Assembly (NCBI GenBank): GCA_027023265.1
Contig: JALVVV010000049.1
Coordinates: forward strand, 124,001 to 188,000
Length of the DNA stretch: 64,000 nucleotides
Source: DHVE2 group archaeon
GTDB taxonomy: Archaea > Thermoplasmatota > Thermoplasmata > Thermoplasmatales > Aciduliprofundaceae
Direction of reading: 5' to 3'
Position numbers and translations under genes: made by a program. The notes under the pieces are model-generated. The model searched no databases. It saw only the letters and a program-made list of their open reading frames with translations, and was not told the origin of the DNA. This document shows, in pieces, positions 451-3,991 of the stretch. Position 1 is the first letter of the stretch, and each line of letters opens with the position of its first letter.

Positions 451-939
451 TTACTGGGTGGGTATAGTTGTCTGCGCATTTCCAGAATAGCCAGCAATGC
501 TAACAGACACAGTATATCCACTGAGAGATCCACCAGATATCACAAGCATATCTCCATCGGATAGCTGCCCATTACCATCCAGATCCTGCACGCTTACGGT
601 GTATGTTGTACTTCCTATCGTGATAGTACCTCCCCCAGTGGTATTCAACGTAGTTTTACCTCCGGTACCAGTTGCAGGTGTGAGCACAACAGTAACCTTG
701 GTAAAGGCGGCACTTGATGGATTGCTCATAGCAACCCTCAAATAAACAGGTCCGCTACTTGGATTAGACTGCTGCTGGTCATAAGTCAAGCTCGCAATCA
801 TCTTGTTCGTTCCGCCGGTTCCCATTCCTGCGACCATTATGTACACGGTCGCTGCCAGCACTACCGTAATTGCCACCATCAATATGGTAGCGATTACGGG
901 GCTCACGCCTTCTTCCTTTTTGTTATATATCTTCTTCAT
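451..939 (-). CDS. Archaeal type IV pilin-like protein
   Basis: This is a 162-residue protein starting MKKIYNKKEEGVSPVIATIL. The start at 939 is chosen over longer upstream options because a GGAGGA ribosome-binding site lies 9 nt before it. It has the prepilin-peptidase site (KKEEG then VSPVIA), a hydrophobic helix about residues 13-35, a Thr/Gly-rich beta domain and a DLDGNGQLSDGD acidic loop near the C-terminus. The N-terminal 30 residues are nearly identical to those of the downstream pilin, while the rest has diverged. This pattern fits a duplicated pair of subunits. It diverges from trkA across a 222-nt AT-rich spacer. Confidence 0.88.
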   Translation of the reverse strand: MKKIYNKKEEGVSPVIATILMVAITVVLAATVYIMVAGMGTGGTNKMIASLTYDQQQSNPSSGPVYLRVAMSNPSSAAFTKVTVVLTPATGTGGKTTLNTTGGGTITIGSTTYTVSVQDLDGNGQLSDGDMLVISGGSLSGYTVSVSIAGYSGNAQTTIPTQ

Positions 940-1130
940 TTTGTTCAGTCCTCCTGCCCGATTGGGCATGTGATATATATTCCCACCCATACTTAAACAT
1001 TTCGCTAAAATCAAGGCATATTTTGAAAATTTTACCGTGATATATGTTATCACTGGGCGTATTTTTAAATTCTAAAATTTAATACAAATTAAATTTTTAA
1101 ACAAGACCACGGGCGTTATTTTTAGAAAAT

Positions 1131-1161: not shown

Positions 1162-1812
1162 ATGTATATTATCGTGATAGGTGGCGGCAGGATCGGGGAG
1201 TACCTGGTGAGCATGCTCATTGAAGAGGGCCACGATATCGCGCTCATCGAGAAAGATATTGAGAGGGCAAAGCACATGGCGGAAAATTACGATATTCTTG
1301 TTATCAACGGGGATGGGGGCGAGGCTAAATTCCTTGAAGATGCGGGAATACACAAGGCTGATGTGCTGGTGGCGTGCACGGGGAACGACCAGATTAACTT
1401 CGTGGCCTGCCAGCTTGCTAAGAGCTCTTATTCCGTAAAAAAGGTAATTGCGAGAACAACAAACCCGAGCAACAAAATACTTTACGAGAAGTTAGGCGTG
1501 GACGTGGTGGTCAGCACCACCGAGGCCTCGGCCAAGGCAATTTACGCGGGCATAAAAGGATTCTCCGCTGTTTTGACTTTCAGCAGGGACGTGGAGCTCA
1601 TTTACGCAAGGATTTCAAAAGACTCTCCCCTCAATTCCGCAAAAGTTGGAGACCTGCACATGCCGTGGGGCAGCGTTCTTGCAGCCATTCTGAGAGATGG
1701 TAACATAATGATTCCCACGGAAGACATAGAGCTTAAGGAAGGTGACGAAATAGTGGTAATAAACAAGAAGGGTGTGGAAAGCAAGGTTAGAGAGCTCATC
1801 GGTGGAAAGTAA
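1162..1812 (+). CDS. trkA: TrkA-type potassium uptake regulatory subunit
   Basis: This 216-residue protein is the cytosolic NAD(H)-binding gating subunit of a Trk/Ktr potassium uptake system. An RCK_N Rossmann domain spans about residues 1-130, with the GGGRIG nucleotide loop at 7-12 and an acidic residue after beta-2 (IEKD). An RCK_C ligand-binding domain follows from about 135. It is half the size of bacterial double-RCK TrkA, the usual archaeal form. It is immediately followed by trkH (1-nt gap), so the two are translated from one transcript. Family assignment is firm; ligand preference cannot be read from sequence. Confidence 0.95.
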   Translation: MYIIVIGGGRIGEYLVSMLIEEGHDIALIEKDIERAKHMAENYDILVINGDGGEAKFLEDAGIHKADVLVACTGNDQINFVACQLAKSSYSVKKVIARTTNPSNKILYEKLGVDVVVSTTEASAKAIYAGIKGFSAVLTFSRDVELIYARISKDSPLNSAKVGDLHMPWGSVLAAILRDGNIMIPTEDIELKEGDEIVVINKKGVESKVRELIGGK

Positions 1813-1813
1813 G

Positions 1814-3220
1814 ATGATTAGCAAGGTATGGTATCTGGTTCTGAAACTCATAACGTACATCACTCCTTTCATGATTTTTGACGCCGTTTACGCGTTGCTG
1901 GTTGACCACAGCACCATGCTATCTCTATCATTTCTGTTTCCGGCCATATGGGTCATATTTCTATGGACATTGTTCATGAACAATCCTCCGCCGGAAAAGC
2001 TCACTCTGAGAGAATCCTTCCAAGTTGCCGCACTGGGCTGGCTTTTAATGTCCTTCGTGGGCGCCCTGCCCTTCTTCCTGTCCGGGTACCTCGACCCCTT
2101 AGATGCATGGTTTGAGAGCATGTCCGGATTCACGGCCACGGGTCTGAGCATGTTCTCCGACGTGGAATCTTTGCCACGGAGCATACTTCTATGGCGCTCC
2201 CTTACAGAGTGGATTGGCGGCGTTGGGGTTATTGCACTTTTCCTATCAGTCATGTACCGCACGAGCAAGGTTGTCCAGACCCTTTACTTCGCCGAGGGCA
2301 GAAGCGACAAAACGGAACCAACAATAATAGGAACGGTGCGCAAAATTTGGCTCATATACGTGTTTTACACCTTTCTCTTCGCTTTTATATTCTTCATTCT
2401 GGGCGCTCCTTTATTCGATTCCATAAACATAGCAATGACCGCACTGGCCACGGGGGGTTTTGCAGTTACCAACAACAGCATAGCAGCGTACCCACCGGGA
2501 GTTGCAGTAGCGATGATTTTCGCCATGGCCTTTGGAGGCATATCCTTCGTGTCCCACATAAACCTCTTCAAAGGCCGAATTAGAGAATTTTTCACCATTG
2601 AGGTAAAAGCCATGCTTGTCATCGTTCTCCTATTTTACCTTATGATGTTTCCTCATCTGATGGCTCGGGGCATGAGTTTCTGGGGTGCCACGCTAAACGC
2701 CAATTTTCACATTGTATCCGCTTTAACAGGTACTGGATTCAGCATCAGCGATTTGAGCAAAATGAGCGACTACGAAAAAACCATACTCACCCTATCCATG
2801 ATTTTCGGAGGCGCGTACGGCTCCACAGCCTCGGCTCTAAAACTCATTCGCGTCGTGGTGCTGTTTTACGGAATTGCCTGGTACGTGAGAGTCAGGCTTG
2901 CACCCAAGAGCGCGGTCATACCCTTCAAAATCGGAAAGAAAGTTTTCGAGCCCACAGAGGTACGAGACGTTTCCATATACACCACAACTTACCTTCTTTT
3001 CCTCCTTGCAGGAGCCATGGTATTCATGCTGTACGGCAACTCCCTGGCAAACTCGCTGTTCGAGGTGGCAAGCGCTGAGGGAAACGTTGGTTTGAGCGTA
3101 GGGATAACATCGCACACCATGCCATGGGTGGAAAAGATAGTTTTGATTTTGGAGATGTGGTTTGGCCGTCTTGAAATATACCCCGTTCTTTTAATGTTCG
3201 TTGACATATTCAAGAAATGA
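1814..3220 (+). CDS. trkH: TrkH-type potassium transporter membrane subunit
   Basis: This 468-residue polytopic membrane protein is the ion-translocating subunit paired with TrkA. Four selectivity-filter loops with the conserved glycine are visible: FTATGLS, LATGGFA, LTGTGFS and EGNVGLS, one per repeat. ATG at 1814 is chosen because it directly follows the trkA stop and a GGTGGA sequence; the longer frame from 1772 would lie inside trkA. The C-terminus is intact. A structured element follows just after the stop. Confidence 0.95.
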   Translation: MISKVWYLVLKLITYITPFMIFDAVYALLVDHSTMLSLSFLFPAIWVIFLWTLFMNNPPPEKLTLRESFQVAALGWLLMSFVGALPFFLSGYLDPLDAWFESMSGFTATGLSMFSDVESLPRSILLWRSLTEWIGGVGVIALFLSVMYRTSKVVQTLYFAEGRSDKTEPTIIGTVRKIWLIYVFYTFLFAFIFFILGAPLFDSINIAMTALATGGFAVTNNSIAAYPPGVAVAMIFAMAFGGISFVSHINLFKGRIREFFTIEVKAMLVIVLLFYLMMFPHLMARGMSFWGATLNANFHIVSALTGTGFSISDLSKMSDYEKTILTLSMIFGGAYGSTASALKLIRVVVLFYGIAWYVRVRLAPKSAVIPFKIGKKVFEPTEVRDVSIYTTTYLLFLLAGAMVFMLYGNSLANSLFEVASAEGNVGLSVGITSHTMPWVEKIVLILEMWFGRLEIYPVLLMFVDIFKK

Positions 3221-3224
3221 ATAT

Positions 3225-3350
3225 CCCCCGGCACTAACAGCACCTATCACCTGTCAAGATGCCTGACCCTGCCGGGGGTTTATGCGGCATCCTCTGGCCC
3301 GTGCATCACAGCTCGATGACCCATCGCTCTCCGCCGGGGGCCCTGATGCC
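3225..3350 (-). ncRNA. Candidate novel structured small RNA
   Basis: This GC-rich block lies in an otherwise AT-rich spacer between trkH and porG. Read on the minus strand it begins with GGCATC at 3350, 24 nt downstream of a TATATAT box at 3371-3377, the spacing expected for an archaeal transcription start. Hairpin 1 (3350 to 3286) closes GGCATC with GATGCC and GGCCC with GGGCC, with an inner CGATG/CATCG hairpin. Hairpin 2 (3278 to 3225) closes CCCCCGGCA with TGCCGGGGG, nine perfect pairs. The 36-nt loop of hairpin 2 carries a second GGCATC that could pair with the GATGCC strand of hairpin 1. It does not match tRNA, SRP RNA or RNase P RNA as far as I can tell. Expression is inferred, not shown. 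Confidence 0.6.
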
Positions 3351-3370
3351 ATGACACAATTGCACGACAG

Positions 3371-3377
3371 ATATATA
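3371..3377 (-). promoter_or_regulatory. TATA box of the candidate small RNA
   Basis: ATATATA on the plus strand reads TATATAT on the minus strand. Its centre is 24 nt upstream of the first paired base (3350) of the structured element and no minus-strand protein gene follows, so it is best explained as the promoter of that RNA. Confidence 0.5.
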
Positions 3378-3409
3378 GTTTTTCCACATGTTGAAGTTTT
3401 CAGAGAAAC

Positions 3410-3417
3410 ATTTAAAC
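3410..3417 (+). promoter_or_regulatory. TATA box of the porGDAB operon
   Basis: ATTTAAAC is centred about 27 nt upstream of ATG 3440. This predicts a leaderless porG mRNA and supports 3440 rather than the in-frame ATG at 3428. Confidence 0.5.
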
Positions 3418-3439
3418 TCATGTCCCCATGCCCTCATCC

Positions 3440-3991
3440 ATGTACGAGGTAAGGTTCCATGGAAGAGGTGGCCAGGGAGCCGTTACGGCTGCGAACATCC
3501 TGGCTATTGCTGCAGTGAAACAGGGATTTTATTCACAGTCTTTCCCGTATTTTGGCGTGGAAAGAAGAGGTGCACCTGTACAGGCATTTACAAGGATTGA
3601 CGATAAGCGTATCGATTTGAGAATGAACGTTTACGAGCCCGATGCGGTGGTTGTTCTCGACCCCACGCTCATGAGCGTCATTGACGTGACGCAGGGGCTC
3701 AAGGAAGGCGGCATAATCATAATAAACACGGCAAAGAAACCTGAAGAATTAGGATTCTCCGGGTACAAAGTTGCCACAGTTAACGCAACGGAAATTGCCC
3801 TCGAGCACAGGCTTGGTTCCCAGGCAGCACCCATCGTGAACACTGCAATACTGGGTGCTTACTCAAAAGCCGTGGGCAACGTGAAAATCGAGCACGTGTT
3901 AGAAGCGATAAGGGAGAACGCTCCCGCAAAGAAAGAAGAAAATGCAAAAGCGGCCGAGGCTGCTTACGAGAAAACTGTTCTGGGGTGGTAA
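3440..3991 (+). CDS. porG: Pyruvate:ferredoxin oxidoreductase, gamma subunit
   Basis: This 183-residue protein starts [13 protein letters not shown], the signature N-terminus of the gamma domain of 2-oxoacid:ferredoxin oxidoreductases; the gamma domain binds the CoA side of the reaction. It is first in a gamma-delta-alpha-beta operon, the four-subunit order known from Pyrococcus and Thermotoga pyruvate synthase. The complex oxidises pyruvate to acetyl-CoA and CO2 with reduction of ferredoxin, or runs in reverse. The start follows the TATA spacing and the family N-terminus. Confidence 0.93.

Follow-up and report, generated by a model that had tools for sequence, protein, structure and literature searches.

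A conserved two-hairpin RNA gene of the Thermoplasmata with the anatomy of archaeal box H/ACA guides and predicted target sites in helix 69 and the A-loop of 23S rRNA

What is encoded by the GC-rich block at positions 3225 to 3350 of the 64,000-nucleotide stretch analysed here (the window), which comes from a DHVE2/Aciduliprofundum-type member of the Thermoplasmata? An earlier note, made from the sequence letters only, had proposed an unannotated, structured small RNA on the minus strand with its own TATA box, had assigned it to no known class and had suggested that it could form a pseudoknot or act as a two-state switch. The block is where the note had placed it, with a GC content of 62% for 3241-3360, the highest in the first 8 kb of the window. 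The host, however, is not strongly AT-rich as had been supposed, the surrounding genes having about 48% GC. The locus comprises the following elements:

3222..3352, minus strand: core of the predicted two-hairpin H/ACA guide sRNA (homologues of the core in 54 genomes of the order; covariation)
3371..3377, centre 3374, minus strand: TATA box of the sRNA, TATATAT (sequence; comparable box in relatives)
3378..3384, minus strand: A-rich BRE-like element, AAAAAC, adjoining the TATA box upstream (sequence; A-rich in nearly all relatives)
1772..3220, plus strand: trkH potassium transporter gene, the convergent neighbour (NCBIfam TrkH)

The TATA box is centred at 3374, 24 nt upstream of G3350, with which the closing helix of hairpin 1 begins; this is exactly what had been read from the sequence. 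Of 17 relatives, 16 have a BRE/TATA-like box at 23-29 nt before the stem. The trkH gene ends 2 nt from the sRNA core and lies next to the sRNA, in convergent orientation, in each of the 16 relatives tested, which belong to two families. On the other side the gene for the gamma subunit of pyruvate:ferredoxin oxidoreductase (porC) starts at 3440; it is a neighbour of the sRNA in only one relative. The porC gene is apparently leaderless (window 3405-3440, plus strand): its ATG at 3440 is preceded at a distance of about 25 nt by a GAAACATTTAAAC box, and this ATG makes a better start codon than the one further upstream at 3428. Further away, window positions 451-1053 on the minus strand encode a type IV pilin/archaellin-like protein with a TIGR02537 N-terminal domain.

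The minus strand of the block folds with a minimum free energy of -61 kcal/mol (z -2.4; 3 of 200 shuffles were equally stable). Of 1272 further 133-nt segments taken from the window, none reached equal stability. The plus strand also folds stably, because of the inverted repeats, but an RNA from that strand was rejected since the box positions, the promoter and the guide complementarity fit the minus strand only.

A DNA search of 60 relatives yielded 17 loci, including that of the window, which have the stems, pockets and upstream A/T box in common while their flanks diverge. Model R1, built on these loci and matching 3220-3352 in the window, found a single copy of the sRNA in 54 out of 117 genomes of the order, and nearly all complete genomes of the order carry it; model R2 found it in 186 of 300 genomes of the class, again as one copy per genome. 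In one genome a second, weaker partial match (L107:270-352, minus strand, 27.6 bits) lies directly upstream of the main copy and ends in ACA; it is probably a further H/ACA hairpin. Among the 17 homologues 96% of cells were paired and 16 pairs showed two-sided changes (shuffle mean 5.8, matched by 0 of 500 shuffles). With 54 homologues, one per genome, two-sided changes were present in 33 of 38 pairs, covariation was 0.704 against 0.232 for shuffled and at most 0.134 for slid alignments, and 540 cells carried two-sided changes against a shuffle mean of 174 and no more than 110 in slid versions. The most conserved parts of the sRNA are the strands that we describe below as guides. Judged by these comparisons, the block holds a genuine minus-strand gene for a non-coding RNA, running from about 3352 to 3222, and a conserved one that is found through the whole archaeal class Thermoplasmata; the earlier reading of a structured small RNA holds, with its stems kept in the homologous spacers of related genomes by two-sided changes.

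Read in the direction of transcription, hairpin 1 consists of:

3345..3350, minus strand: lower stem, 5' strand, GGCAUC (two-sided changes in all 8 pairs, 54-sequence set)
3340..3343, minus strand: predicted 5' guide GGGC, pairing with A-loop GCCC (GGGC in 53 of 53 parsed homologues; GCCC in the LSU)
3330..3338, minus strand: upper stem, 5' strand, ending in the GA of the kink-turn (helix 2 of the covariation alignments)
3311..3329, minus strand: apical stem-loop beyond the kink-turn (helices 3-4 of the covariation alignments)
3298..3308, minus strand: kink-turn UGA and upper stem, 3' strand, with one bulged nucleotide (alignment)
3294..3296, minus strand: predicted 3' guide CAG, pairing with A-loop CUG just 5' of U2554 (guide/A-loop comparison)
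3286..3291, minus strand: lower stem, 3' strand, GAUGCC (covariation, 17 and 54 sequences)
3281..3283, minus strand: ANA box, AUA (sequence; ACA at the same place in L017)

Hairpin 2 follows with:

3270..3278, minus strand: lower stem, 5' strand, 9 bp, CCCCCGGCA (covariation, 17 and 54 sequences)
3264..3269, minus strand: predicted 5' guide GGGUCA, pairing with helix 69 UGACCC (target scan)
3257..3263, minus strand: upper stem, 5' strand, GGCAUCU (covariation, 17 and 54 sequences)
3246..3256, minus strand: kink-loop U-GA-CAGGU-GA-U (conserved UGA/UGA pattern)
3239..3245, minus strand: upper stem, 3' strand, AGGUGCU (covariation, 17 and 54 sequences)
3235..3238, minus strand: predicted 3' guide GUUA, pairing with helix 69 UAAC (target scan; in 20 outgroup copies)
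3225..3233, minus strand: lower stem, 3' strand, UGCCGGGGG (covariation, 17 and 54 sequences)
3222..3224, minus strand: ANA box, AUA (ACA in outgroup copies)

Both hairpins had been recognised before, hairpin 1 closed by GGCAUC/GAUGCC and hairpin 2 by the nine perfect pairs of CCCCCGGCA with UGCCGGGGG; the second GGCAUC, however, which had been placed in the loop of hairpin 2, is in fact the 5' strand of its upper stem and pairs with AGGUGCU.

Productive archaeal H/ACA guides have a 10-layer GA stem and an ANA box 14 nt from the upper stem (PMC4652768). As marks of the class we took a lower stem of about 7-9 bp with a pocket, an ANA box (usually ACA) 14-15 nt after the closing pair, a tandem G-A kink-turn or kink-loop giving 10 layers, guide strands complementary to rRNA around an unpaired UN, and the protein partners. 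Both hairpins have a lower stem with a guide pocket, and all stems covary; the lower stem of hairpin 1 has six Watson-Crick pairs and one G-U pair in the window and 8 bp in relatives. The box spacing is 14 nt in both cases, the AUA of hairpin 1 lying 14 nt after the upper stem and that of hairpin 2 at exactly this distance from the pair that closes its upper stem. Both boxes read ACA in L017, a member of another family, and the box after hairpin 2 reads ACA in outgroup copies from 20 further families. Hairpin 2 has the ten layers outright, as its 7-bp upper stem, a U-U pair and two sheared G-A pairs together make a 10-layer GA stem; in hairpin 1, where a GGA/UGA kink-turn carries the apical stem, ten layers are reached only if the one bulged nucleotide is counted. 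Complementarity to rRNA gives hairpin 2 a clear best site, and hairpin 1 a site at which three target nucleotides, not two, are left unpaired. The host genome encodes an intact Cbf5 (279 aa) and Nop10. On this anatomy the window RNA is a tandem pair of archaeal box H/ACA pseudouridylation motifs and so belongs to a known class, not to the switches, and the statement that it matched no class does not stand; its closest Rfam family is HgcG.

Which uridines the two pockets would present was addressed with a scan over every uridine of the host 16S and 23S rRNAs, whose scores are simple nearest-neighbour energy sums and not RNAsnoop values. In the host these rRNAs are encoded on separate contigs, 23S on C27 (L018) and 16S on C9 (L019), which fits the unlinked arrangement of these genes known from Thermoplasma. 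For hairpin 2 the best site was 23S U1975 in GUAAC[UA]UGACCCU at -18.8 kcal/mol, with the next uridine at -7.2, when the G-U closing pair was used as the pocket boundary; the other boundary gave no site. The guide-target duplexes are 7 and 4 bp, and U1975 is in helix 69, at E. coli position 1915. Known equivalents of this site are P. abyssi L2016 (guided by Pab40.3), M. jannaschii L2015 (guided by a motif of that species) and A. fulgidus L1970 (Af4.3).

Scans with hairpin 1 from single species were ambiguous as to the best site. The best site common to five families was 23S U2605 in CUG[UAC]GCCC, at -18.2 against -13.2 for the next, energies for which some 5' guides of the first family were taken from the lower-stem GGGC, the counts coming from a re-parse. 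This uridine is in the A-loop, at E. coli U2554. The pocket strands across the five families read YGGGC and CAG(A/C), and the top of the pocket is a pyrimidine-pyrimidine mismatch in all 53 homologues. The duplexes comprise 4-6 bp on the 5' side and 3-4 bp on the 3' side, with 4 and 3 bp in the window, where the 5' guide pairs over 4 bp against 5-6 bp in relatives. Within the order of the window the 3' guide is CAG in 53 of 53 homologues and the A-loop reads CUG in 10 of 10 LSU genes read, whereas outside it the guide is CAA in 20 of 20 genomes and the A-loop UUG in 7 of 7 read; the changed guide base faces the changed target base, at A-loop position 2551. This co-change is probably one evolutionary event, and as such it lends support to the A-loop as target but is no proof. 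Position 2555, the free N of the pocket, is A in the family of the window and in L017 and U elsewhere in the class, while U2554 is constant, and this makes U2554 the likelier modified base. The A at 2555 is at position 2606 of the host's own 23S (L018, reverse complement) and is also found in L020-L024 (CUGUACGCCC). Positions 2554 and 2555 are almost universally UU outside the Thermoproteota, and U2555A raises frameshifting in E. coli (PMC9976906).

Taken together, these results make it highly probable that the block is a single minus-strand unit for a tandem two-motif box H/ACA guide sRNA addressing uridines of helix 69 and the A-loop, and the sRNA very probably directs two 23S uridines at functional centres to pseudouridine. 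Transcription, RNP assembly, both pseudouridines and the exact geometry of the hairpin 1 pocket are what we infer from these data, as follows. The sRNA would be transcribed from its own minus-strand promoter as one unit, the kink-turn or kink-loop of each hairpin would be bound by L7Ae, with Cbf5, Nop10 and Gar1 placed along the stem and ANA box. The hairpin 2 pocket (GGGUCA/GUUA) would open around GUAAC[U A]UGACCC so that U1975 of the host's own 23S enters the Cbf5 active site, and hairpin 1 (YGGGC/CAG) would bind CUG[U A C]GCCC and present U2554 (own 23S U2605), which adjoins the CCA end of the A-site tRNA. A wider proposal, which we regard as quite possible though short of probable, is that hairpin 1 pseudouridylates A-loop U2554 throughout the Thermoplasmata by way of a non-canonical pocket, with a Y-Y mismatch at its top in the order of the window and a U2554-N2555-C2556 spacer, and that it would be an archaeal counterpart of snR10 that arose by guide change in the Pab40.2 slot, guide and target co-evolving at 2551.

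The alternative that fares best accepts an H/ACA RNA but has hairpin 1 modify another uridine, or serve as a non-modifying chaperone or assembly part. The unusual pocket top with its Y-Y mismatch and 3-nt spacer, the short 3' duplex and the second rank of other sites such as 23S U389 speak for it; we nevertheless consider it unlikely, given that U2605 is the best site common to five families and that the single guide-base difference between order and class matches the single base difference in the A-loop stem. It is far less probable that the block acts on the convergent trkH, as its terminator or as an antisense regulator, or is an element of the trkH/por spacer, and not a guide: the core does end 2 nt from the trkH stop codon with trkH as constant neighbour in two families, but porC adjoins in only one relative, a terminator has no need for guide strands to be the most conserved parts, and the anatomy matches H/ACA in detail. 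Coding, terminator and antisense readings were all rejected as leaving the top conservation of the guide strands unexplained. Next to no chance is left for the pseudoknot or two-state switch formed by GAUGCC of hairpin 1 and GGCAUC of hairpin 2. The earlier note rightly drew eight pairs in the window, and in the 17 nearest homologues the paired cells amount to 83%. Yet two-sided changes in this helix do not exceed those of shuffles (50/500 and 53/500), only 4 of 54 homologues have all eight pairs and most have two or three, and there is strong covariation in the nested stems with which it is incompatible; the helix, not conserved across the 54, is an accident of the window's nearest relatives.

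The guide reading supplies a model for the whole class and predicts modification sites in two hot spots of the ribosome, helix 69 and the A-loop. Most of what is known about box H/ACA guides comes from Pyrococcus, Archaeoglobus, haloarchaea and Pyrobaculum, and in the open literature that we searched no description of an H/ACA guide was found for the Thermoplasmata. Hairpin 1 and the A-loop provide a natural guide-target co-change, and they raise the question of how the uridine is positioned in a pocket that is mismatched at the top and leaves a spacer of three nucleotides.

The best Rfam match of the window is RF00064 HgcG at 24.3 bits (E 3.2e-5), below the gathering cutoff of 77, so the RNA, known in substance through this match, is missed by Rfam at its curated cutoff, and a whole-genome HgcG search of the host genome listed no match. 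Matches to neisseria_FSE, BSnc120 and DUF2693 were weak, at chance level, and were rejected. On whole genomes, the HgcG model lands exactly on these loci in 11 relatives (best 65 bits, E 1.3e-17), and in L017 and L047 the alignment covers the full 276 positions of the model, with three hairpins. Because the relatives' matches extend across three hairpins, the window gene is homologous to Pab40/Pf7, though not a member by the Rfam rule. L017:1346-1601 and L047:1498-1753 keep a third, upstream H/ACA hairpin resembling Pab40.1, where the window family has none. Of the three HgcG slots the window has only the second and third; the promoter of the window family lies directly before the second slot, which indicates that the first hairpin is absent here. 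In Pab40/Pf7/HgcG of the Thermococcales, the hairpin order is the same, with hairpin 1 in the Pab40.2 slot and hairpin 2 in that of Pab40.3, and the hairpin that the window lacks is the guide for P. abyssi L2588. The guide match of hairpin 2 agrees with the last HgcG hairpin, whose target is likewise the uridine of helix 69 (position 2016 in P. abyssi). The window RNA differs from HgcG in the AUA form of its boxes, in the kink-loop that hairpin 2 carries and in the pocket sequences of the middle hairpin, the guide of which departs from the consensus of the Thermococcales and points to the A-loop.

In Haloferax volcanii, HP2 is a predicted guide for helix 69 pseudouridines 1956/1958 (PMC2584109). 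It is like hairpin 2 of the window, whereas HP1 was proposed for Psi2621 and not for the A-loop. Yeast snR10, a eukaryotic snoRNA for which we claim no homology, addresses the same A-loop position as the predicted target of hairpin 1, taking its Psi2923 to correspond to E. coli 2554. In 25S rRNA this snR10-guided pseudouridine stands beside Um2921 and Gm2922 (PMC9045821). Af4 of Archaeoglobus fulgidus has a third motif that guides 16S 1167, and its Af4.3 guides L1970, the same site as hairpin 2. Its Af4.2b guides L2601, 631 nt downstream of L1970, and in the host the U2554 equivalent lies 630 nt after the hairpin 2 site; because the spacing matches, Af4.2b may, judged from position numbers only, be the same A-loop guide as hairpin 1.
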